Virus record (IMG/VR): IMGVR_UViG_3300010885_023630 | Span: 1-64,000 of that record | Source of the DNA: a virus | Strand: one strand, 5' to 3' | DNA length: 64,000 nucleotides | Part shown: in pieces, positions 39,954-54,634 of the stretch | How positions within the stretch are numbered: position 1 is the first letter of the stretch | Layout: every line of letters starts with the position of its first letter | Program-made: the position numbers and the translations under genes | Notes under the pieces: generated by a model | Told to the model about the DNA's origin: nothing | Database searches by the model: none | What the model saw: the letters and a program-made list of their open reading frames with translations, nothing else

Positions 39954-41462
39954 ATGAATACCATTACCCGAGACTGTATTAACAGAGATATAAAGTTATT
40001 CCAGTTTAAAGAAGCCGAATTAGATCGTACATACAATTACGAAGAATTCTGTTGGCTCATTGACCGCTGGAAAATACTGCTAGTTGACAAATATAAAGCC
40101 GAGCGTGGGCAAACTTGTTTAATTGATTATACGTTTATTAGCCCCATGTACTTTGCCGCTATCTTTGCTGCAAGCGAACTAGGATTAATCTTAATTGTTG
40201 ATTTGCCGCATTGTTATAATGATCAAGATGTGTTAAGTTACAAAGTAAACATGCATGGTAAAATTGATTATATTATTACTCACGAAGTAAAATACAATCC
40301 TGATCATGTGTTTTATTTTGAATATGATCTTAAGCGTAATGCCCATATAGGGAAGAATGTAATATTTCAGCGGGAGTTACACGAGCACGTTTCCAGTAAT
40401 CCCGATTTAATCAACACCGTCAGCAAACTTATATGGTGTAGGCCCGAAGATACATTAGTCTATGCCTGTAGCAGTGGCACAACCGGTTTGCCTAAACGCA
40501 TACAAGATAATCACGAAAAAATCTATTTGATGGCAAAGCGTCTTGAAACAAACATGGGCTTTGAATCAACGGACAAGATTTTACATACTCGCAACATACA
40601 CCACGGAGCAAGTATGGTTTATCATTTCTTGCCTAGCTTTATGTGCGGTGGATCGCAATACACTCCAGGATTCACAGTAGACGATTTATCTGAAGCGGGA
40701 ATTAAACGAATAATTAAATTTGTTAAAGACTATCAAATTGATCATGTGTTTTTATATCGTCCAGAGTTTTTATATAACTTTTTAAACTACTGCGAAGCAT
40801 TGCCGTTTCCTTTTAAAATACAGACCTTATTCCAATTTGGAGAAGATGTATTAAAAATGGCACACGAAAAAAATGCTCGTTGGATTAGCGTTAGCTTTGG
40901 CGATACACACATTGGGCTAGGTTTGTTTACTAAAATTGTCGACACACGCCAATTGCCCAAGGATTACGTTCCTAATAACTTTGGACCAGCTAGAGATGAT
41001 TTTTACGAATACGAATTACGCGATCATAAACTCTATGTCAGAATACCTAGCATAGGTCAAGATTGGAAAACCAGTAACGATAAGTTTGATCTAGTCAATG
41101 GAGAATACATTTTCGAAGGACGTGCGGACCAATATCGTATTGGCGAGGAGTGGATAGACTTTGATGCGATGGATCGGGCAGTTAAAGAGATTTTTAAGGG
41201 AGCGGCTAGTTTTAGTCTGGACTTTGAAATGCAAAAGCTGTATTTGGCTGTATGGAAAGATAACCCTACAGCAGAAAAAGAGTTTGACGAATACTTAAAA
41301 ACAAACTACGAAGCCGTACGTGTTGCGTATGTACTAAGAGATCAAAACGTTAAAGAGTTTTTTAACGGAAGAAAAATTGATTTATCAAAAATTAGAGACT
41401 ACGGCCGAGCAGGACTAGGCATTCGATTAGAAGACACATTTTTAAAAGGAAATTTAAGGTGA
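39954..41462 (+). CDS. ANL-family adenylate-forming enzyme (acid ligase), copy 1
   Basis: 502 residues, starting at the base after the gp47 stop. The phosphate loop ACSSGTTGLPK (about residues 170-181) is the hallmark of ATP-dependent carboxylate adenylation (acyl-CoA synthetases, NRPS A domains, luciferases). Other family elements: HHGAS (about 215), SFGDT (about 315), WKTSNDKF where others have TGD, GRADQYRIGEEWI (A8 hinge, about 389) and a C-terminal RKIDLSKIR that may hold the catalytic Lys. Reaction: acid + ATP to acyl-adenylate, then transfer to CoA or another acceptor. The acid is unknown. The Asp of the TGD motif is replaced by Asn. A paralogue lies beyond the TctC gene at 42393. Confidence 0.82.
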   Translation: MNTITRDCINRDIKLFQFKEAELDRTYNYEEFCWLIDRWKILLVDKYKAERGQTCLIDYTFISPMYFAAIFAASELGLILIVDLPHCYNDQDVLSYKVNMHGKIDYIITHEVKYNPDHVFYFEYDLKRNAHIGKNVIFQRELHEHVSSNPDLINTVSKLIWCRPEDTLVYACSSGTTGLPKRIQDNHEKIYLMAKRLETNMGFESTDKILHTRNIHHGASMVYHFLPSFMCGGSQYTPGFTVDDLSEAGIKRIIKFVKDYQIDHVFLYRPEFLYNFLNYCEALPFPFKIQTLFQFGEDVLKMAHEKNARWISVSFGDTHIGLGLFTKIVDTRQLPKDYVPNNFGPARDDFYEYELRDHKLYVRIPSIGQDWKTSNDKFDLVNGEYIFEGRADQYRIGEEWIDFDAMDRAVKEIFKGAASFSLDFEMQKLYLAVWKDNPTAEKEFDEYLKTNYEAVRVAYVLRDQNVKEFFNGRKIDLSKIRDYGRAGLGIRLEDTFLKGNLR

Positions 41463-42403
41463 AAAAAGTATTAACTATATTATTAATGAGCCTGGCTACA
41501 CTAGCTGGCGCACAGACAACATTCCCTAACAAGCCAGTTAGATTTATTTTGTCGTTACCGGCCGGTTCCGGCCCCGACGTTGTGTCCAGAAAAGTAGCAG
41601 AGGTCTTATCGGAAAAATGGGGGAAGCCTGTTATTGTTGAAAACAAGCCTGGAGGCGGAGGTAGCATTGCTATCAATTATCTTGACAATGAACCCGGCGA
41701 CGGATATAATATTGGATTTTTTGACGCAGGTGCTATTGTGTCGTATCCTGTGTTGTATAACAAGCCAGAATTAATTGCCACCATTGAACCAATTCGTCCG
41801 TTATTTACAGCACACATGGCATTGATTACTTCCACAGACATTAAGAACTTTAACGAACTTAAACAATTAATGGCCAGTAATACTAATTACGGATCATGGG
41901 CAGTCGGGTCATCTGGGCACTTATCTGGTGCCGAGTTTGGCGCTCAAATTCGCACAGGTATGGATCATGTTGCTTATAAAGAGTACCCAGCGTGGTATAT
42001 TGATATTTCTAATAAGCAAATTGCGTACGGGTTTGGTAGTATCGGGTCGTCACGTGCTATGCGTGAGGCAGGACGTATTCACTACTTAGGTATTTCAGCT
42101 AGTAAGCGTGATCCAAACTGGCCCAACGTGCCCACTATTAAAGAACTAACAGGTGTAGAATTAAAGACTCCCCCAAGTTGGTTAGCATTTTATATTCGCA
42201 AGTCCGTGGACAAAAACATTAAAGTACAAATAGAAAAAGACATGCGAGAAGCCGCGCAAGATCCTCGCGTTAAAGAAGCTATTGCTAAATTAGATTATGT
42301 TGATTACGGTTCTATGTCGTTGCCAGAGTTTAATCGGTTGGTAGCACAAGATATTGTTAATTATGGAAATGTTGCTAGAAAGTTTAACATTAATGTACAA
42401 TAA
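41459..42403 (+). CDS. TctC/Bug family periplasmic solute-binding protein
   Basis: 314 residues, GTG start at 41459 overlapping the previous stop (GTGA) with AAAAGGA upstream. The N-terminus is a typical Sec signal peptide (MKKVLTILLMSLATLAGA, cleavage likely before QTT). The mature protein matches tripartite tricarboxylate transporter receptors: FPNKPVRFILSLPAGSGPDVVSR, EKWGKPVIVENKPGGGGSIA, then a NVPTIKEL-type segment (WPNVPTIKELTG) and APSW-like PPSWLAFY. Such proteins bind organic acids in the periplasm and hand them to TctAB; no membrane subunits are encoded here, so it would have to use host TctAB. The family is strongly expanded in Betaproteobacteria. It is flanked by ANL ligases, suggesting uptake plus activation of one acid (inference). 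Confidence 0.9.
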   Translation: MKKVLTILLMSLATLAGAQTTFPNKPVRFILSLPAGSGPDVVSRKVAEVLSEKWGKPVIVENKPGGGGSIAINYLDNEPGDGYNIGFFDAGAIVSYPVLYNKPELIATIEPIRPLFTAHMALITSTDIKNFNELKQLMASNTNYGSWAVGSSGHLSGAEFGAQIRTGMDHVAYKEYPAWYIDISNKQIAYGFGSIGSSRAMREAGRIHYLGISASKRDPNWPNVPTIKELTGVELKTPPSWLAFYIRKSVDKNIKVQIEKDMREAAQDPRVKEAIAKLDYVDYGSMSLPEFNRLVAQDIVNYGNVARKFNINVQ

Positions 42404-43865
42404 TAAAATCGTAACAAGACATTGCGTCAATCCAGACATAATCATACATCGTCATAATATCGACGGTACTCCTACACGCTCATGGAATTACCAAGAGTTT
42501 AGTGATATGGTTAATTTCTGGAAAGTAATGCTAGTAGAAAAATATGATCCTAAGCCCGGGCAAAAGGCGTTTGTGTATGGTACTCCAGGTATACACTATT
42601 ATACAGCACTATTTGCCGCAATAGAACTAGGACTTGTTATGATTATCGACTGGCCGCATTGTCGTAGCGAGGAAGACTTTAAGAGTTATAAAGTTAATAT
42701 GTTCGGTAAGTTGGATTTTGTTATTACTGAGCGTATAGATTTTTTACGACCCGAGAGTCCAGAGTATCAGCCATGGGAACATGCTCGCAATACACAATTA
42801 TCGAATACTCAAGTATATTTTGATGAGTTAGACACGTATACTATACAAGATAATTCCAGGTACGAAGAAATTTCTAATCGTATTGTTCCTAAACCCGACG
42901 ATATAATGCTTGAGTATTGTAGTAGCGGCACAACCGGTACTCCTAAAAAATTATACGAAACTCATAAAAAGATATATCGTATGGCTGAACGTTTAGGGAA
43001 ATACTTTGGATACAAGGCTGACGATAAATGCTTACACACTAACAACATACACCACGGTGCTAGTTTGTGTTACTACTGGTTACCTACATTTATGATTTGC
43101 CGCGAGCATTATAGTCAGGATCCTAGAGTATTGCTTTCATTGGACTGGATTAGAAAAGAAAAAATTAATCAAATGTTTTTATATCATCCGTCAATGTTGC
43201 TATCTTGGTTAGTAGGAACTAAACCAGTTGATCATGAAGTTAATATTGTTACACTATATCAGATTACCAAAGAAGTTGCTGGCTTAATGAAAGAAAAAAA
43301 TATTACTAGTGTACAAACTAGCTTTGGTGACACTAGTATTGGGTTAGGATTCTTTATTAAGAAAGTTACACAGGAAACTGATTTAGCATCGTATAATGTT
43401 ACTAATATGGGCCCACAGCTAGATGATAATTTTTTCCTACTAGAAGTCAGAGACGGTCTGTTGTATATTTCGTGTCCCGAAATGGGCGAAGGTTGGCGCA
43501 CTAGCGACGATGTGTTTGATTTAATCGATGGTGACTTTTATTTTAAAGGTCGCGCAAATTTATACAGAATCAATGACGAATGGATTTCATTGAATCAACT
43601 AATAGATAAAGTAAATCAGTTATTTGGGGAAAACAAAGCGGCAGTTGTAGTTGATGCTGACGCACAAAAATTATATTTAGGTGTGTGGGAAGAAAATCCC
43701 GAAGCCGAACAAAAGTTTAACGAGTACTTAGAATCGACGTGGCAATTACTTAGACTGTCTTATGTATTACGCGGTTACACCTACGATGACTTTTACAATA
43801 GTCGAAAAATTGATAACTCCAAAATTCGAGATTATTGTCGTACTCGATTAGGTTTATCTTCTTAA
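42393..43865 (+). CDS. ANL-family adenylate-forming enzyme (acid ligase), copy 2
   Basis: 490 residues from the ATG at 42393, overlapping the TctC stop by 11 bases; the in-frame upstream ATGs fall deep inside TctC. Clear paralogue of the enzyme at 39954: EYCSSGTTGTPK (about residues 173-184), NNIHHGAS, TSFGDTSIGLGFF, WRTSDDVFDLIDG (the TGD equivalent with Asp kept), GRANLYRINDEWI (A8, with Asp of GRxD changed to Asn) and SRKIDNSKIRDY near the end. Expected to adenylate a carboxylic acid; substrate unknown. It is followed by gp46 after 22 bases. Confidence 0.82.
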   Translation: MYNNKIVTRHCVNPDIIIHRHNIDGTPTRSWNYQEFSDMVNFWKVMLVEKYDPKPGQKAFVYGTPGIHYYTALFAAIELGLVMIIDWPHCRSEEDFKSYKVNMFGKLDFVITERIDFLRPESPEYQPWEHARNTQLSNTQVYFDELDTYTIQDNSRYEEISNRIVPKPDDIMLEYCSSGTTGTPKKLYETHKKIYRMAERLGKYFGYKADDKCLHTNNIHHGASLCYYWLPTFMICREHYSQDPRVLLSLDWIRKEKINQMFLYHPSMLLSWLVGTKPVDHEVNIVTLYQITKEVAGLMKEKNITSVQTSFGDTSIGLGFFIKKVTQETDLASYNVTNMGPQLDDNFFLLEVRDGLLYISCPEMGEGWRTSDDVFDLIDGDFYFKGRANLYRINDEWISLNQLIDKVNQLFGENKAAVVVDADAQKLYLGVWEENPEAEQKFNEYLESTWQLLRLSYVLRGYTYDDFYNSRKIDNSKIRDYCRTRLGLSS

Positions 43866-43887: not shown

Positions 43888-45657
43888 ATGTTTAAAATAA
43901 AAACTCTAACGGTTAAAAACTTTATGAGTGTAGGCAATACTACACAAGCGGTTGATTTTGATCGACGTGACTTAACACTGGTTTTGGGCGAAAATTTAGA
44001 CTTAGGAGGAGACGACTCCGGCGCACGAAACGGTACAGGTAAAACAACTATTATCAACGCATTGAGCTATGCCCTGTACGGTAACGCCCTTACTAATATT
44101 AAAAAAGACAATTTGATCAATAAGACCAATACCAAAGGCATGATGGTTACTATTGATTTTGAAAAAGAAGGAGAATTATATCGTATTGAGCGTGGGCGTA
44201 AACCTAACATAATGAAATTTTGGGTCGGTGATAACGAAAAAGAAATCACTGATGACGCACAAGGTGACAGCAGAGAAACACAAGCAGACATTGAACGTAT
44301 GCTAGGCATGAGCCACGACATGTTCAAACATATTGTAGCTCTTAACACCTACACTGAACCTTTTCTTGCCCTTAAAGCAAACGATCAGCGTACCATCATT
44401 GAACAATTATTGGGCATTACACTACTAAGCGAAAAAGCCGATCGTCTTAAAGAACAAAACAAAGCAACTAAAGATGCTATTACACAAGAAGAGTTTCGTA
44501 TTAAAGCTGTTGGTGATGCCAACAAGCGTATTGAAGAACAAATCGAAGCACTTAAACGTAGACAAACAATGTGGATCAATAAACATGCTGAAGATACAGG
44601 GAAATTACAAACCGCTCTCAGTGAGCTACTCAAAATTGATATTGATGCGGAAATTGCGGCACACAAGGCTCTTGCTGAATATAAGTCAAAGAAGAAAGAT
44701 ATCACTGATTTATCATCCTATATTTCACGATGCGAACAGGACGAAGTACGTGAAAATCGGCTTATTGAAAAGCTCAGGAAAGACATTGCGGCACTCAAAG
44801 ACCATAAGTGTCACTCCTGCGGGCAAGATCTCCACGACGAAAAACACGAGTCTAATTTAACCAGCAAGAAAAAAGAGCTACAAGAAGCTGCATTACAAGC
44901 ACTATCTACAAACACGCAGTGGATGGAACTCACAGATGCGCTTAAAGAGCTAGGCGAGCTAGGCGTTAAACCAGAAACGTTTTACGACAAAGAAGAAGAT
45001 GCTATCCATCATCGTAGTACGTTAGCTAACTTACAGCAACAAATTGAAACCAAGTCCACAGAACAAGATCCGTACCAAGAACAAATTCAAGAAATGTCAG
45101 AACAGGCACTAGAGGAAATTAGCTTTGACCTTATTAATGAACTTACAAATGTCAAGGATCATCAAGAGTTCTTGTTAAAACTATTAACAAACAAGGATAG
45201 TTTTATCCGCAAACGAATTATTGATCAGAATTTAAGTTATTTAAATGCCCGCTTGGGACAATACCTGGACCGTATTGGCTTACCACACACAGTTAAGTTT
45301 AACAACGACTTGACTGTAGCCATTACAGAATTAGGTAGAGATCTAGACTTCGACAACTTGAGTCGTGGAGAACGTAACCGCTTGATTTTATCCTTGAGTT
45401 GGGCGTTCCGCGATGTTTGGGAAAGCCTATATCAACCCATTAACTTGTTGTTCATTGACGAGTTAGTAGACAGCGGTATGGATAGTTCCGGAGTTGAAAA
45501 CTCTTTAGCTATCCTAAAAAAGATGAGTCGTGAAGCTAACAAGTCAATTTGGTTAGTGTCACACAAGGATGAGCTAGCGGGTCGTGTCAACAATACACTA
45601 CACGTAGTTAAAGAAAATGGATTTACAAGTTACAACACCGACGTCGACATTGCTTAA
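43888..45657 (+). CDS. 46: Recombination endonuclease subunit gp46 (SbcC/Rad50-like ATPase)
   Basis: 589 residues (T4: 560). Walker A GARNGTGKT at residues 45-53; a central coiled coil (about 170-430) interrupted by the zinc hook CHSC (about residue 309); ABC signature LSRGERNR (about 491) and Walker B LLFIDELVDSGMD (about 520), followed by the switch His in VSHKDEL. Forms a complex with gp47 to resect DNA ends for recombination and late replication. Start ATG at 43888 lacks a ribosome site and is 6 bases from a TATACT box. Its 3' end overlaps the next radical SAM gene by 41 bases. Confidence 0.95.
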   Translation: MFKIKTLTVKNFMSVGNTTQAVDFDRRDLTLVLGENLDLGGDDSGARNGTGKTTIINALSYALYGNALTNIKKDNLINKTNTKGMMVTIDFEKEGELYRIERGRKPNIMKFWVGDNEKEITDDAQGDSRETQADIERMLGMSHDMFKHIVALNTYTEPFLALKANDQRTIIEQLLGITLLSEKADRLKEQNKATKDAITQEEFRIKAVGDANKRIEEQIEALKRRQTMWINKHAEDTGKLQTALSELLKIDIDAEIAAHKALAEYKSKKKDITDLSSYISRCEQDEVRENRLIEKLRKDIAALKDHKCHSCGQDLHDEKHESNLTSKKKELQEAALQALSTNTQWMELTDALKELGELGVKPETFYDKEEDAIHHRSTLANLQQQIETKSTEQDPYQEQIQEMSEQALEEISFDLINELTNVKDHQEFLLKLLTNKDSFIRKRIIDQNLSYLNARLGQYLDRIGLPHTVKFNNDLTVAITELGRDLDFDNLSRGERNRLILSLSWAFRDVWESLYQPINLLFIDELVDSGMDSSGVENSLAILKKMSREANKSIWLVSHKDELAGRVNNTLHVVKENGFTSYNTDVDIA

Positions 45658-46609
45658 TTATCGACGCATTCATATTGAGTTGAGCAGTAAGTGTACATTA
45701 AAGTGTCCGCGCTGTCCGCGAACGGAGTTACAGCCCGAACAACTTAACAGAGAAATTAGTTTGTTTGAGTTTCAACGTGCGTTTAGTTCTGACATACTTA
45801 AAGACATACAGGAAATAACATTCTGTGGTGATGTAGGAGATCCTATATATGCTCGAGACTTTTTACGTATTGTAGAATATATCAAGAAGTCGCGTTTTAA
45901 TATCAGTTTGATTATTGTTACTAACGGTAGTTACAAATCTGAGCTGTGGTGGCAAGAGTTGGGTATGTACCTGCGTTACAATGATAAAGTTACGTTTAGT
46001 GTGGATGGGTGGGATCAAGTCAGCAACGAACAATATCGTGTCAATTCGGACTTTGATAGTATAGTTGCTGGCGCTCGTGCGTTGAGAAAAGTAACTCGAG
46101 CGCAGATGAATTGGTCTGCTATCTATTTTAAATTTAACGAAAGTAAAATGCACTGGATACAGGACCTCGCACGTGATTTGGGGTTCGATACCTTTGAGTC
46201 TGTGCTAAGTTCAAAAGTTGATGGTAGATATTTAATCAACGGAGTAGATCCACTAAAGCCATCCAATGGCTACGTTGCTGGTACTAGCCGGTACGAAGTT
46301 AAAACAGAAAAACTTAATGGCAAGGTACCTATTGTATTTTACGACAAGGTAGATCGTCATCCCTGGGCCAAATGTATGAACTGGGAAAAGGAAATGTTTA
46401 TTAATGTAGACGGATTGGTATTTCCTTGTCCCTGGTTTAATAGTGGCTACTTAGAAAACGATTTTGTAGATAAGCATAGAGATAAAATTAATATTAAAAC
46501 TAGAACACTAAAAGAAATCTTAGCAGATCCTCTGTGGGAAGAACTACACACACGATTTGCTGTGGGCCCATTAGAGATTTGTCGATTAAAATGCGAGAGC
46601 TGTCAATGA
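45617..46609 (+). CDS. Radical SAM/SPASM-type protein
   Basis: 330 residues from an ATG inside the end of gp46; a TTG at 45650 is an alternative start. The radical SAM motif CTLKCPRC is at residues 26-33, after HIELSSK. A C-terminal SPASM-like set of cysteines is visible: KCMNW, VFPCPWF and the final CRLKCESC, expected to bind auxiliary [4Fe-4S] clusters. SPASM enzymes usually modify peptides or proteins. It differs from the other four radical SAM proteins here, which carry their extra cysteines at the N-terminus. The stop overlaps the next radical SAM gene (ATGA), so the pair is coupled. Confidence 0.85.
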   Translation: MDLQVTTPTSTLLNYRRIHIELSSKCTLKCPRCPRTELQPEQLNREISLFEFQRAFSSDILKDIQEITFCGDVGDPIYARDFLRIVEYIKKSRFNISLIIVTNGSYKSELWWQELGMYLRYNDKVTFSVDGWDQVSNEQYRVNSDFDSIVAGARALRKVTRAQMNWSAIYFKFNESKMHWIQDLARDLGFDTFESVLSSKVDGRYLINGVDPLKPSNGYVAGTSRYEVKTEKLNGKVPIVFYDKVDRHPWAKCMNWEKEMFINVDGLVFPCPWFNSGYLENDFVDKHRDKINIKTRTLKEILADPLWEELHTRFAVGPLEICRLKCESCQ

Positions 46610-47865
46610 GTAATGTATTTTGTAATATTCCTTGGGTAGAAGTCCATATCAATGCAGATGGGACTTACCATACCTGCGGCGCACAAACCAATCGTATCAG
46701 TGGCACAGAAGAAGCTAAACTGTACAATGTACACAACATGACTATTCCTGCGTGGATCAACAGCGAGCATCAGCGCAGGGCTAGGATTAATAAACTTAAT
46801 AACATACCTGAGTCTGCTTGTGCTATGTGTTATCACGAAGAAAGTTTAGGTAGTAGTAGTAAGCGAGTTAAAGAAAATTTAAAAAGCGGCATTACTGAAA
46901 ACAATTTTGAACTTACATTTATACACAGTAAAGACTATCCCTTGTTTGATTATTCGGCACGTAACAAAGGCTTAACTGATTTTGATCGTCCTACCAGCTA
47001 TCATTTAAGTTTAGGTAACGAATGTAATTTGGCCTGTAAAATGTGTGGGCCTACTGCTAGTAGTCGACTGGCTGTACAAATGATCAAAGAAGGTACATAT
47101 TCTGGCCCGGCACGTATGAACTGGACCGAAGACGAAACAGCGTGGAATCACGTAGTAGACTACATTTGCACTACCGAAAACCTAAAGTTTGTACACCTAA
47201 TAGGCGGGGAACCATTGATGAATCCTCGCTTCGAACAGTTGATAGATAGGCTTTTAGCAGCCAAAAAGACAGATATTTACTTAGGGTTTACTACCAACGG
47301 CACTATGTTTAACCACAATTTAATGACTAAATTATCGGCATTTAGGCACGTAGATGTAGGAGTTAGCATAGAGTGTTGGGGCGAATTAAACGACCTAGTA
47401 AGGCAAGGTTCTACTACACAAACCGTGCTAGATAACATAGATCAGTACTTGAAATACCGTCGACAGGCACACATTTACGTTACGCTACGGGCAGTACCTA
47501 GCGCACTTACAGTACACACGCTAGACGAATTGTATAAGTGGTGTATTACTCGCGAGCTAGATGTGGTAACTAATATATTGGTAGAACCCGAATATCAACA
47601 GATATCGCAACTACCAAAAGAAATTAAAGAACGGTTAATAGCACGTTATGAGCTATGGCAACATAGCGAGCCAGCACCTGCTGACAGTAATCCTAGAGAC
47701 CCAACTTGGTTTAAACAACATATCGATAACGAAATTATGGCAATCATCATGGCACTCAAACAAGAACCCGAACACAATTTAACTGATGAACTTTACGATA
47801 AACTTGAACTTTGGGGTTGGTTTGACCACCCAGAGGTGAAAAAATATTTCTTCATATGCGATTAA
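46606..47865 (+). CDS. Radical SAM protein with N-terminal Cys (twitch-like) region
   Basis: 419 residues from the ATG at 46606, which overlaps the preceding stop as ATGA. N-terminal cysteines C6 and C24 (FCNIPW, YHTCGAQTN) and C72/C75 (CAMCYHEESLG) match the arrangement in the minus-strand proteins at 518 and 1698, with the SAM motif CNLACKMC at residues 140-147 and IGGEPL about 65 residues later. So it belongs to the same family although it lies 45 kb away on the other strand. Substrate unknown; the adjacent SPASM enzyme may act on the same target. Confidence 0.85.
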   Translation: MSNVFCNIPWVEVHINADGTYHTCGAQTNRISGTEEAKLYNVHNMTIPAWINSEHQRRARINKLNNIPESACAMCYHEESLGSSSKRVKENLKSGITENNFELTFIHSKDYPLFDYSARNKGLTDFDRPTSYHLSLGNECNLACKMCGPTASSRLAVQMIKEGTYSGPARMNWTEDETAWNHVVDYICTTENLKFVHLIGGEPLMNPRFEQLIDRLLAAKKTDIYLGFTTNGTMFNHNLMTKLSAFRHVDVGVSIECWGELNDLVRQGSTTQTVLDNIDQYLKYRRQAHIYVTLRAVPSALTVHTLDELYKWCITRELDVVTNILVEPEYQQISQLPKEIKERLIARYELWQHSEPAPADSNPRDPTWFKQHIDNEIMAIIMALKQEPEHNLTDELYDKLELWGWFDHPEVKKYFFICD

Positions 47866-47879
47866 GATAACTAGTATGC

Positions 47880-48308
47880 ATGACTTGGCTTTACGAAACT
47901 TCCACTATAGAAACCTTACCAGAGGACTGTATCGGATTTGTTTATTTGATTACAAATAACATTTCTGGCAGGAAGTATATTGGAAAAAAATTAGCCAAGT
48001 TTAGTAAAACAACATACAAAGTAGTTAAATTAAAAAACGGCAAGAAGAAGCGTAAAAAAATCAAAGGCAAAATTGACTCTGATTGGCAAACCTATTACGG
48101 CTCAAATATTGAACTCAATCGAGACGTAACAGCATTAGGCGAGGAAAACTTTACAAGAGAAATATTATTCTACTGTAAAAGCAAAGCAGAATGTAGTTAC
48201 ATTGAAGCAAGAGAACAATTTTCACACAAAGTGTTAGAATCTGACGACTATTATAACGGACATATACAAGTCCGTGTACATGGCTCTCATATTAAAAACA
48301 AACTCTGA
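47880..48308 (+). CDS. GIY-YIG nuclease-domain protein
   Basis: 142 residues. GFVYLITNNISGRKYIGKK (about residues 14-32) holds the two signature elements (here VYL and YIG), SDWQTYYGSN follows after a very basic stretch (KLKNGKKKRKKIKGK) that may contact nucleic acid, and a conserved Glu lies in YIEAREQF. The family includes homing endonucleases and repair-type nucleases. It is free-standing, not inside an intron, and ends just before the large gene-free structured region, so it could be a mobile endonuclease or act on that RNA or DNA (inference). Confidence 0.8.
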   Translation: MTWLYETSTIETLPEDCIGFVYLITNNISGRKYIGKKLAKFSKTTYKVVKLKNGKKKRKKIKGKIDSDWQTYYGSNIELNRDVTALGEENFTREILFYCKSKAECSYIEAREQFSHKVLESDDYYNGHIQVRVHGSHIKNKL

Positions 48309-48321
48309 CATAAAGTCATTT

Positions 48322-48836
48322 CCCATTATACAGTAGTAGGCTAGCGCAGGCTAAACTTCATGCGCCTATGACAACAGGACCTCGGGTCGCTGGGACGGAA
48401 ATCTCTTTGCTGTAAAAGAGTGCTTAACCACTATCCTTAACAGGACGAGGATCGCTAATTGCCGCGGTTTGGTTATTTGAAGAAATGAATAAGGCTGAAA
48501 AGACGCTCAAGCGATTGAGCACGGTTAATGCGTATGTTAGCGTATATGTATTAATCCGCCGTTGTAAAGACACAACTCGAGGTACCGGACAACCGCCTCT
48601 GTAATGTTGTAACGCTAAGTGACTGTGCTACTCGGATAATGCTACAGAACAATCTTTGCCCTTGAGCGGGCAAAGTGTGACCAATTAATCTGGATAATAC
48701 TAAAAAACAACAATATTAAATCAAAGAAAAAATGTTGTGAGCGTAAGCGAAACAACAGACTTACGTAGTAAGTCTTAAATGAATCATACAATCACAGAGA
48801 TACTTAATATGTTCCTTGCGAACATATGATTCATTT
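48322..48836 (+). ncRNA. Candidate large structured non-coding RNA
   Basis: The 546 bases 48309-48854 hold no credible gene but many stem-loops. Seen directly: GCGCA/TGCGC (48344-48348 with 48361-48365), CTCTTT/AAAGAG (48403-48408 with 48415-48420), GCTCAA-GCGA-TTGAGC (48505-48520, a GNRA tetraloop), GTTGT/ACAAC near 48561-48576, an 8-bp stem CTTTGCCC/GGGCAAAG (48654-48675), a GC-GTAA-GC loop inside GTTGT/ACAAC (48734-48756), AGACTTAC/GTAAGTCT (48757-48775) and a closing stem AATGAATCAT/ATGATTCATT (48778-48787 with 48826-48835). Long-range pairs TTAGCGT/ACGCTAA (48537-48543 with 48612-48618) and GCGGTT/AACCGC (48464 with 48591) are possible. GNRA loops read correctly only on the plus strand. 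It matches the scale of large phage-associated RNAs such as GOLLD, ROOL or T-large, but I cannot assign a class. Confidence 0.7.
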
Positions 48837-48854
48837 TCTTAGATAAACACTAGA

Positions 48855-49088
48855 TTATTTGTTTTTCCAGATGCCATATAGAACCCAAATTGCTACGAGT
48901 CCTACTAGTCCTTGACTACCAATTGCGGCAATGATTGAAGTAACATTTGCTGTTACGGATACTGCCGGGAAGAATGGTATTGCCATACCCTTGAATAAAA
49001 TTTCTAATACAATAGCTAGGGCTATAATGCTTACACCCACATCTGCTAATGTGTTAGACCATTTCTTAATTTGAGTTAAGATTTCCAT
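48855..49088 (-). CDS. Small two-helix membrane protein, possible holin
   Basis: 77 residues with a strong ribosome site (AAAGGAG) before the ATG at 49088. Two hydrophobic segments (about residues 16-38, VGVSIIALAIVLEILFKGMAI, and 49-72, IIAAIGSQGLVGLVAIWVLYGI) are joined by a Pro/Val/Thr-rich loop, with a basic tail WKNK. The size and two-helix plan resemble phage holins, but no lysin gene adjoins it, so the role is open. Its 3' end abuts the structured RNA region, and the two read towards each other. Confidence 0.65.
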   Translation of the reverse strand: MEILTQIKKWSNTLADVGVSIIALAIVLEILFKGMAIPFFPAVSVTANVTSIIAAIGSQGLVGLVAIWVLYGIWKNK

Positions 49089-49201: not shown

Positions 49202-49429
49202 CTAGAAAAATGGTAAACCTGACTCTTTAGTGGTTTCCATATTCTTTTTAATGATGTCTTTGATAAGGTCTCGTTCTTGATCGGACAACATTAACGCATC
49301 GTCATAGCTTAACCCGCCACGCATGTGCCAGCTAAAACTTAATGCTTCGTGTCTTATGGCTTTTGACTCTGAATCAAATTTATTTAGATACTCAACCACA
49401 CCCTCGCGGTCAAGAGTCAAAAGCCTCAT
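49202..49429 (-). CDS. Small baseplate-hub assembly protein candidate (gp51 position)
   Basis: 75 residues, start overlapping the gp26 stop as ATGA. Helical, with a recognisable core SFSWHMRGGLSYDDALMLSDQERDLIKDIIKKN and an end KESGLPFF that recurs in small proteins encoded after gp26 in T4-like phages. In T4 gp26 is followed by gp51, a hub assembly catalyst; by position this is its counterpart, though it is much shorter than T4 gp51 (249). Function inferred from position only. Confidence 0.6.
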   Translation of the reverse strand: MRLLTLDREGVVEYLNKFDSESKAIRHEALSFSWHMRGGLSYDDALMLSDQERDLIKDIIKKNMETTKESGLPFF

Positions 49430-50265
49430 GCGAAAAAACTTGCGTAATTAAAATCCAACGGAACATCGTATGCGTGTTCACATTTAGTACACTTTGCGTT
49501 AACAGGTTTAACACTAGCAGATTGGTTAATTACAGTTAAACGCTTTTGTATTTCTTTCATTACCTTGTAGTCAGACATATCAAAGTATTCTTTGATAAAC
49601 GCAGGGTCCGTAACAACTACACCTTCTTCTGTTGTGATTGAGCGTGTGCTACTGGCGCAAATTTCAATGTTTAAATCCACTAACTTTTTTAAGTATGCGT
49701 CGGATTTTGATTTCTTTTCTTCGTCTGGGATAGCGTCGTCGGTAACTGTGCGTAATATTTGCTGTTCTGTAAAAGCAATTTGATTTACGCGATTAACTTC
49801 AAAATATGGTTGTGGGCGTAGTACAATTTTTAAACCGTCGAACTCAACTGGGGTTTCATAATCGGGCATGGCAATTTGATCTACTAGACTGCTTAATGCT
49901 ACACCAAACCTGTTGTCTTCTTCACAAGCAGGACAAACACTATCAAATTCCATTTCAGCGCCGTAACTGGCGATGCGTATGTTTAGCAAAATAACGTCTA
50001 CGTCGATACTAGGCATTGACCACGCATCTTTAATGTTTGGGCAACAGCTTTGTATAACATCGACTACACCTTGTCCGTTCATTAGTGCGTCTGGTGTACG
50101 AATAGTAATTTCGTCACGAGCTGTCATTGGATACACAGGAATTTCCCCAGTAACTGGTAAGTCTAAACTACCCTCGGGCCAGAATCTGCCGTTTGATGGT
50201 AGTTTAATATAAGTTGCTGGCTGTCTAAAGTGTTTGAACAGCGGATTATTTGGTTTTTGTTCCAT
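49426..50265 (-). CDS. 26: Baseplate hub assembly protein gp26
   Basis: 279 residues (T4: 208). It matches the T4 baseplate family: KLPSNGRFWPEGSLDLPVTGEIPVYPMTARDEITIRTPDALMNG (motifs LPSNGRFW and MTARDE, about residues 20-65), a CPAC pair at about residue 113, QPYFEVNR in the middle and a second pair CTKC about 20 residues from the C-terminus; the four Cys could bind zinc. Needed for assembling the central hub of the baseplate. It is transcribed divergently from the tape measure gene, with a TAAATA-type promoter (50302-50309) on the minus strand. Confidence 0.85.
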   Translation of the reverse strand: MEQKPNNPLFKHFRQPATYIKLPSNGRFWPEGSLDLPVTGEIPVYPMTARDEITIRTPDALMNGQGVVDVIQSCCPNIKDAWSMPSIDVDVILLNIRIASYGAEMEFDSVCPACEEDNRFGVALSSLVDQIAMPDYETPVEFDGLKIVLRPQPYFEVNRVNQIAFTEQQILRTVTDDAIPDEEKKSKSDAYLKKLVDLNIEICASSTRSITTEEGVVVTDPAFIKEYFDMSDYKVMKEIQKRLTVINQSASVKPVNAKCTKCEHAYDVPLDFNYASFFA

Positions 50266-52936: not shown

Positions 52937-54634
52937 ATGGCCGGTTGGAAAAAATACTTTAAAACTAGTAACTTACCTAGCAACATTAGTCCCCTAGGCG
53001 GCGGTCGTGCGCCTGATCCTGGATATCGCAATTATCAGAGTCAGTTGCCTGAAGTTTATACAGGGCAACCAAATCGTGTTGAGCGTTACAATCAATATGA
53101 ACAAATGGACATGGATTCAGAAGTAAATGCCGCATTAGATATTTTGGCAGAATTCTGTACTCAAAAGAATGTTGAAAATCACACAGCGTTTACTGTTAAG
53201 TTTAAAGACACACCAAGCGACAACGAAGTTAAGATTATTAAAGAACAGCTACAACAATGGGTAGCACTCAACGAATTTAACAAACGTATCTTTAAAATTG
53301 TACGTAATGTATTCAAATATGGTGATCAGGTGTTTATCCGTGACCCAGAAAACTTTAAACTATACTGGACAGAAATGTCTAAGGTTACCAAAGTTATTGT
53401 TAACGAAGGCGAAGGTAAAAAGCCCGAACAGTATTTGATCAAAGATTTAAACCCTAACTTTCAAAACTTAACAGTTACAGCAGTGGCTACAACAGACACT
53501 TATACGAATCACCCACAGGTTGGTGGTCCAAGTGGTAGCTATACACAACCACAAAGCCCGTTTGGTGGTGGTAGCCGTTTTAGCCATGCCAAGAACGAAG
53601 CGGCTATCAATGCCGAACACGTAATTCATGTATCGTTAACTGAAGGCCTAGATGTATATTGGCCATTTGGTAACTCAGTATTAGAAAACATCTTTAAAGT
53701 ATTCAAACAAAAAGAGCTGTTGGAAGATAGTATCATTATATATCGTGTACAACGTGCTCCGGAACGTCGTATCTTTAAGATTGATGTGGGCAACATGCCA
53801 AGTCATATGGCCATGGCATTTGTTGAACGCATTAAAAATGAAATTCACCAACGCCGTATTCCTACACAAACAGGTAACGGACAAGGCAATATGATGGATG
53901 CTACATACAATCCGTTAAGTACAAACGAAGATTACTTCTTCCCAACTACAGCAGACGGACGTGGAAGTAGCGTTGATGTGTTACCGGGTGGCGCTAACCT
54001 GGGTGAAATTACAGACTTGCGCTTCTTTACCAACAAGTTGTTCCGTGGTTTGCGTATTCCAAGTAGCTATTTGCCTACCACAGCAGAAGATGGCACAGCT
54101 GCCTATACAGACGGTCGTGTTGGTACAGCACTGATACAAGAATGGCGCTTTAATCAATATTGCCAACGTTTACAAAGTTTAATTGCTGACAAGTTAGACG
54201 CAGAGTTTAAATTGTTTATGCGTTGGAGAGGTTTCAACATTGATAGTAGTTTGTTTGAATTGTCATTCAATGAGCCACAAAACTTTGCCCAATATCGTCA
54301 AGCAGACATTGATGCCGCACGTATTGGTACATTTACACAGCTAGAACCATATGCGTTTTTAAGCAAACGTTTCTTAATGAAACGTTATTTGGGAATGACC
54401 GAGCAAGAAATTAGTGAAAATGAAACAATGTGGGCCGAAGAGCGTGGCGATAATGAATTATCACAACCCGGTGCTGCAAACCCACGTAGCGTGGGCATTA
54501 GCCCAGGCGGCATTGATGCTGACTTAGAAGGACTGGCTCCAGATGTAGGCGCTGAAGACGGTGGTGTAGGTGGTGCTCCGGAATCTGTTGCTCCGGGAGC
54601 CGCAGGTGCAGTTGGCGCAACGCCAGCACTTTAA
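52937..54634 (+). CDS. 20: Portal vertex protein gp20
   Basis: 565 residues (T4: 524). Family elements: LPEVYTGQPNRVERYNQYEQMDMDSEVNAALDILAEFCTQ (motif YEQMDMDSEVNAALD, about residues 52-70), NVFKYGDQVFIRDP, IIYRVQRAPERRIFKIDVGNMP (RAPERR), DYFFPTTADGRGSSVDVLPGG, RFFTNKLFRGLRIPSSYLP, and a C-terminal low-complexity Gly/Pro/Ala tail. It forms the dodecameric ring at the capsid vertex through which DNA is packed and to which the neck attaches. First gene of the head operon (20, prohead core, 21, 22, 23). Confidence 0.96.
   Translation: MAGWKKYFKTSNLPSNISPLGGGRAPDPGYRNYQSQLPEVYTGQPNRVERYNQYEQMDMDSEVNAALDILAEFCTQKNVENHTAFTVKFKDTPSDNEVKIIKEQLQQWVALNEFNKRIFKIVRNVFKYGDQVFIRDPENFKLYWTEMSKVTKVIVNEGEGKKPEQYLIKDLNPNFQNLTVTAVATTDTYTNHPQVGGPSGSYTQPQSPFGGGSRFSHAKNEAAINAEHVIHVSLTEGLDVYWPFGNSVLENIFKVFKQKELLEDSIIIYRVQRAPERRIFKIDVGNMPSHMAMAFVERIKNEIHQRRIPTQTGNGQGNMMDATYNPLSTNEDYFFPTTADGRGSSVDVLPGGANLGEITDLRFFTNKLFRGLRIPSSYLPTTAEDGTAAYTDGRVGTALIQEWRFNQYCQRLQSLIADKLDAEFKLFMRWRGFNIDSSLFELSFNEPQNFAQYRQADIDAARIGTFTQLEPYAFLSKRFLMKRYLGMTEQEISENETMWAEERGDNELSQPGAANPRSVGISPGGIDADLEGLAPDVGAEDGGVGGAPESVAPGAAGAVGATPAL

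Follow-up and report, generated by a model that had tools for sequence, protein, structure and literature searches.

Two of the described kinds of RNA that come close to the one considered here deserve mention first. Polynucleobacter-1 (RF01718 in Rfam) was published as a probable RNA with a probable cis-regulatory role, found in Burkholderiales and in fresh water and estuary (Weinberg et al., 2010, PMC2864571), and in the open-access full texts searched that name occurs in this one paper only, the accession RF01718 appearing additionally in a Haemophilus genome paper. GOLLD, ROOL and OLE, in turn, form homo-oligomers (PMC12286853). In this article, I describe a locus at positions 48,309 to 48,854 of the window, by which I mean the first 64,000 nucleotides (nt) of IMG/VR record IMGVR_UViG_3300010885_023630, a 126,980-base virus contig from a freshwater T4-like phage. 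The plus strand of this block encodes a genuine RNA, structured and about 445 nt long, that begins as Polynucleobacter-1, continues well beyond it and carries two copies of one heptamer, so that an obscure 141-nt Rfam entry, taken in 2010 for a probable cis-regulator, turns out to be part of a large pseudoknotted phage RNA. In the open-access literature searched, I found no description of its fold over the full length, of its subfamilies, of the phage clade that bears it or of the twin-heptamer code.

Extent and fold of the RNA

The block is the largest internal gene-free gap in the window, exactly 546 nt between open reading frames and itself holding none of at least 60 amino acids, and the next internal gap is merely 114 nt; the sequence-only reading, an earlier annotation made from the letters alone, had singled out this same gene-free block as a large structured phage RNA, which homology, covariation and conserved synteny now strongly support. 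The Rfam scan which that reading proposed was run with cmscan on the whole window against Rfam 15 and returned a single above-threshold match, RF01718, confined to the 5' third of the RNA and covering model positions 1-141 with their helices (102.5 bits against a gathering threshold of 37 bits); matches of the block to U6 and cow-rumen-2 were sub-threshold and were set aside as chance. Homologues were collected by IMG/VR pattern scans and by portal and SegE look-ups, giving 116 loci, some of which overlap on the same contigs, and redundancy was therefore reduced at 93% to leave 63. Homology spans the whole block in this set, reaching about 48705 in most relatives and about 48776 when the terminal hairpins are included. 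Since both homology and covarying structure continue to about 48776, the RNA is not confined to the roughly 141 nt of RF01718 but is about 445 nt long, Rfam holding its 5' third only, and the best-conserved 20 nt (about 95% identity, near 48580-48599) fall outside the Rfam model. The plus-strand fold has an energy of -144.1 kcal/mol (z -2.95), and none of 100 shuffles was as low. The elements of the RNA, and the inverted repeat that follows it, are these:

48331..48776, plus strand: full conserved structured RNA, about 445 nt (conservation profile, blastn, alignment of 54-63 non-redundant homologues, pair counts)
48339..48478, plus strand: RF01718 Polynucleobacter-1 match, 5' third of the RNA only (cmscan, 102.5 bits, E 4.6e-21)
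48331..48412, plus strand: pseudoknot helix h0, 48331-48334 with 48409-48412 in the loop of hairpin 48403-48420 (AU/GC covariation 29/19)
48339..48365, plus strand: 5' H-type pseudoknot, 48339-48342 with 48349-48352 and 48344-48348 with 48361-48365 (helix search, pair counts)
48425..48475, plus strand: stem 48425-48430 with 48470-48475, enclosing hairpins 48435-48444 and 48450-48469 (covariation)
48505..48520, plus strand: hairpin with a GYGA (GNRA) loop in 36/54 relatives (pair counts, loop counts)
48523..48556, plus strand: long hairpin, its loop 48538-48542 pseudoknotted to 48613-48617 (14 + 5 pairs, strong covariation)
48561..48610, plus strand: most conserved core, pseudoknot 48561-48565 with 48589-48593, plus 48572-48576 with 48606-48610 and 48579-48583 with 48595-48599 (core model R1)
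48654..48675, plus strand: hairpin CUUUGCCC/GGGCAAAG between the repeat units (helix search, pair counts)
48735..48775, plus strand: two 3'-terminal hairpins, 48735-48755 and 48757-48775 (high covariation)
48779..48834, plus strand: terminator-like inverted repeat beyond the conserved RNA (sequence)

Compensatory base changes in homologues, which the earlier annotation had named as decisive, are present. Pairs were counted in a separate MAFFT alignment (A2, 54 sequences), where a model of 102 pairs, including four pseudoknot helices, has 94.1% standard pairs against 33-43% when the partners are slid by 1-3 columns, the helices having been partly picked from alignments of the same sequences; two-sided changes fill 883 cells against 247 +/- 14 in shuffled data, and 73 pairs show them. 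A tree-aware test on 61 sequences, likewise aligned with MAFFT and using a home-made tree-based null rather than R-scape, finds 27 column pairs at E < 0.05, and a covarying non-standard triple of 48434 (U/C), 48446 (C/U) and 48467 (G/A) hints at tertiary structure. The pairings foreseen from the letters fared unevenly. A contact of 48537 with 48612 was correctly anticipated and is the pseudoknot 48538-48542 with 48613-48617, with compensatory changes, whereas one of 48464 with 48591 finds no support, 48464-48469 pairing with 48450-48455 and 48589-48593 with 48561-48565 instead, both with covariation. Both GNRA loops exist (GCGA at 48511-48514 and GTAA at 48743-48746), the first keeping the form GYGA in 36/54 relatives and the second varying, and the closing 10-bp stem is there too (48779-48788/48825-48834) but lies outside the conserved RNA, which ends near 48776.

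The likeness to RF01718 is close at the 5' end, where 140 nt match the whole 141-position model, helices included. The RNA differs in its residence in T4-like phages and in being about 300 nt longer, a stretch that holds twin repeats, pseudoknots and the best-conserved core, all absent from the model; its subfamilies B and C have no RF01718 match. The annotation had offered a GOLLD- or ROOL-like RNA or a new class. With GOLLD, ROOL and OLE the RNA does share scale and pseudoknots, and with the first two a phage association, but there is no sequence match to these three, and no covariance model of GOLLD, ROOL, OLE or HEARO matches, RF01718 being the sole match at gathering thresholds; none of these families turned up in a permissive scan of the block either. 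Nor is the RNA entirely new, its 5' third being RF01718. Twin hypervariable heptamers are not a known feature of GOLLD, ROOL or OLE.

Twin repeats and their shared heptamer

Two unpaired repeat units flank the hairpin at 48654-48675:

48619..48642, plus strand: repeat unit 1, unpaired, GUGAC...A-CUC-GGAUAAU-G, heptamer at 48634-48640 (non-Watson-Crick identity covariation with unit 2)
48677..48700, plus strand: repeat unit 2, unpaired, GUGAC...A-UCU-GGAUAAU-A, heptamer at 48692-48698 (identity covariation with unit 1)

Each unit consists of GUGAC, about 7 nt, an A, a triplet (CUC in the first, UCU in the second), the heptamer, which is GGAUAAU in the window phage, and mostly G in the first or A in the second. 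In the tree-aware test the heptamer columns covary by identity and not by complementarity (G-G or A-A, U-U or A-A), and every one of the 78 non-redundant RNAs scored, which together hold 12 versions, has the same heptamer in both copies, where shuffling leaves a match in 12.7 RNAs on average and in 26 at most. A pattern demanding identical heptamers fits 152 of the 159 loci that have SegE and at least 700 nt downstream, and when the remaining seven were read by eye, six had matching heptamers with other spellings or triplets (AGACGAA in L173, ACATGAA in L198 and L199, AGATCAA in L209 and L210, GGATAAT in L215), and the seventh, L178, is cut by a contig end. Among phages the heptamer differs, with about 15 versions overall. 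The excess identity between the repeats extends two nt upstream and two nt downstream of the unit, and some divergent members show joint changes in the GUGAC box upstream as well.

On an RNA tree built without the repeats the heptamer changes about 30 times, the minimum with shuffled labels being 31, and the trees of the flanking proteins imply 46-50 changes; from these counts and the constant identity of the copies it follows that the heptamer is replaced quickly, and always in both copies together. A testable code is thereby exposed, of heptamers that always match within an RNA and differ between phages, and repeats that stay identical while changing must share a partner. Four positions distinguish the repeats in all or nearly all cases (C/U, U/C, C/U, G/A), and all four differences are transitions, as would be expected if both repeats paired with one partner strand through G-U wobble. 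In one relative (L014:4205-4642) a 5' scaffold identical to that of the window is followed by a different 3' part with another heptamer; this mosaic, judged from the alignment, suggests exchange by recombination, and the L014 RNA is likely a recombinant. A reading as clustered regularly interspaced short palindromic repeats (CRISPR) was rejected because the spacing between the repeats varies too much.

What the heptamer may bind

I propose, with a probability of about 0.57, that the RNA acts in trans and offers an external partner two identical elements for recognition. The T4-like clade would transcribe a non-coding RNA of about 445 nt from the block, its pseudoknotted scaffold would hold two single-stranded repeat units around one hairpin, and the same heptamer on both would direct them to one third partner. 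Nucleic acid from the host, or from a competing element, is the likeliest candidate, and the RNA would act on it as a decoy, an antisense RNA or a guide with two arms. I favor this kind of partner because no internal, evident phage or flanking-protein partner appears and because the transitions between the repeats are compatible with wobble pairing. A more specific version is tentative and I would not bet on it, namely that the RNA is a weapon or identity tag of the phage, whose scaffold would aim two fast-changing elements at host or rival nucleic acid and whose specificity would be switched by changing both copies. Trans base-pairing through short guides in a phage would recall C4 and other phage antisense RNAs, from which this RNA differs in its much larger scaffold and in having no target found in the phage genome.

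The partner lies outside the RNA, where no other column covaries with the repeats, and it is neither an evident phage sequence nor a flanking protein. Several points weigh against the proposed reading: the 10-nt complement in the phage's own 127-kilobase (kb) record occurs solely on the RNA itself; 14 phage contigs, searched for the heptamer in the same sense and in complement and checked at intergenic sites and ortholog starts, gave no recurrent phage target; a promoter-like site at 48305-48334 does not exceed chance expectation; searches of the RNA, the phage genome and the flanking proteins together yield no identified partner; and a protein partner encoded elsewhere would account for identical repeats equally well. 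One same-sense heptamer match shared by a gene family was discarded, since codons in common use, such as GAT GAA, account for it. The genes around the RNA, on which the remaining arguments turn, are as follows:

47880..48308, plus strand: SegE-type GIY-YIG protein gene, usual upstream neighbor of the RNA (Pfam PF19835, E 5.7e-32; synteny)
49202..49429, minus strand: convergent 75-amino-acid gene, usual downstream boundary of the RNA (synteny)
49426..50265, minus strand: T4-type baseplate protein (Pfam PF12322; synteny)
52937-54634: gp20-type portal (Pfam)

The chief rival, which I hold to be unlikely, makes the repeats the sites of a phage-encoded RNA-binding protein, a dimer whose specificity drifts between phages, and the RNA a ribonucleoprotein scaffold or sponge. 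The two identical, spaced, single-stranded motifs speak for it, as does the GUGAC box that changes together in some divergent members, but no residue of SegE, the baseplate protein or the 75-amino-acid protein covaries with the heptamer more than the tree-based null allows, and 46-50 switches on the flanking-protein trees seem fast for a protein specificity. A sponge of the CsrA/RsmA type was rejected on its own account: many copies have GGA, and short single-stranded motifs are repeated in CsrB/RsmZ-type protein sponges and in the TwoAYGGAY RNA as they are here, but the GGA core is not conserved and evidently not required, because heptamer position 1 is A and not G in 27 of 78 RNAs and others read GCA, GAA or ACA.

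SegE lies directly upstream in most phages, its stop codon at or within the RNA's 5' element in 29 of 59, and the Rfam authors marked the 5' part as probably cis-regulatory (PMC2864571), all of which would suit an element in the 3' untranslated region that regulates or processes the SegE transcript. I nevertheless consider this improbable, given that the RNA is kept where SegE is 800-1000 nt away (L082, L103, L175) and that twin hypervariable heptamers on a pseudoknotted RNA of 445 nt far exceed what a switch in a 3' untranslated region requires. It is very improbable that the repeats are contacts between subunits of an RNA-only multimer, a cage like those of GOLLD and ROOL: the RNA is large, ornate and phage-borne with several pseudoknots, and homo-oligomers are known for GOLLD, ROOL and OLE (PMC12286853), but Rfam gives no match to these three, and such a contact would require a covarying complement within the same RNA, where none was found. 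The adjoining GIY-YIG nuclease gene might also suggest a mobile or catalytic RNA, an intron or homing-associated ribozyme, which I regard as scarcely credible in view of the missing Rfam intron or ribozyme match and of a locus that is fixed in the clade and lies between genes, not within one; a self-splicing intron in particular was dismissed, there being no Rfam match and the RNA being intergenic in the phages examined. Identifying the binding partner of the heptamers would reveal the role of large phage RNAs.

Distribution and genomic neighborhood

A large clade of T4-like phages carries the RNA, which is present in most members examined, and the core covariance model R1 finds it in phages without any RF01718 match, some of them on contigs of 337-347 kb. 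The RNAs of these phages make up subfamilies B and C, whose 5' half differs and has no Rfam match, and the twin units, the intervening hairpin and, in most, the 3' hairpins are retained; the 5' domain of subfamily B (L213:6000-6750, GGAACGGTGCAATACCCGGTC...) is strongly conserved among relatives and matches nothing in Rfam even at E 1. The core model found no match in seven distant isolate phages whose portal or SegE is related (Melnitz, Atu_ph07, PA5oct, V45v66, ACP17, phiN3, Phosso), where absence is unproven, and blastn of the block found none in isolate phages. RF01718 occurred in 0 of 369 bacterial genomes sampled from one class, none of them a known carrier, so that absence from bacteria is likewise unproven, and 14 pattern matches in bacterial genomes looked like chance. 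Two related phage contigs carry a freshwater-2 RNA (RF02980; L097:16652-16732 and L109:16442-16515), and an unrelated contig caught by the first pattern scan has an RT-15 RNA (RF03018; L016:10645-10837).

Synteny is constant among relatives, with SegE upstream in nearly all and, on the downstream side, the genes for the portal, the baseplate protein and the convergent 75-amino-acid protein. Between the RNA and the 75-amino-acid gene, the window phage and a few relatives (L032, L033, L034) have an insertion encoding a 77-amino-acid membrane-like protein without a Pfam match (48855-49088). Upstream of the RNA lie two neighboring radical SAM/SPASM proteins (45617-47865), and many relatives likewise have related radical SAM genes. 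Farther upstream (41459-43865), a TctC-type solute receptor gene is followed by an AMP-binding enzyme gene, a pair that in a T4-like phage is perhaps host-derived and metabolic. ARAGORN finds no tRNA-like domain (tmRNA/tRNA) within the window, and the phage record carries 17 tRNA genes at its far end (L240:16387-L241:2533).
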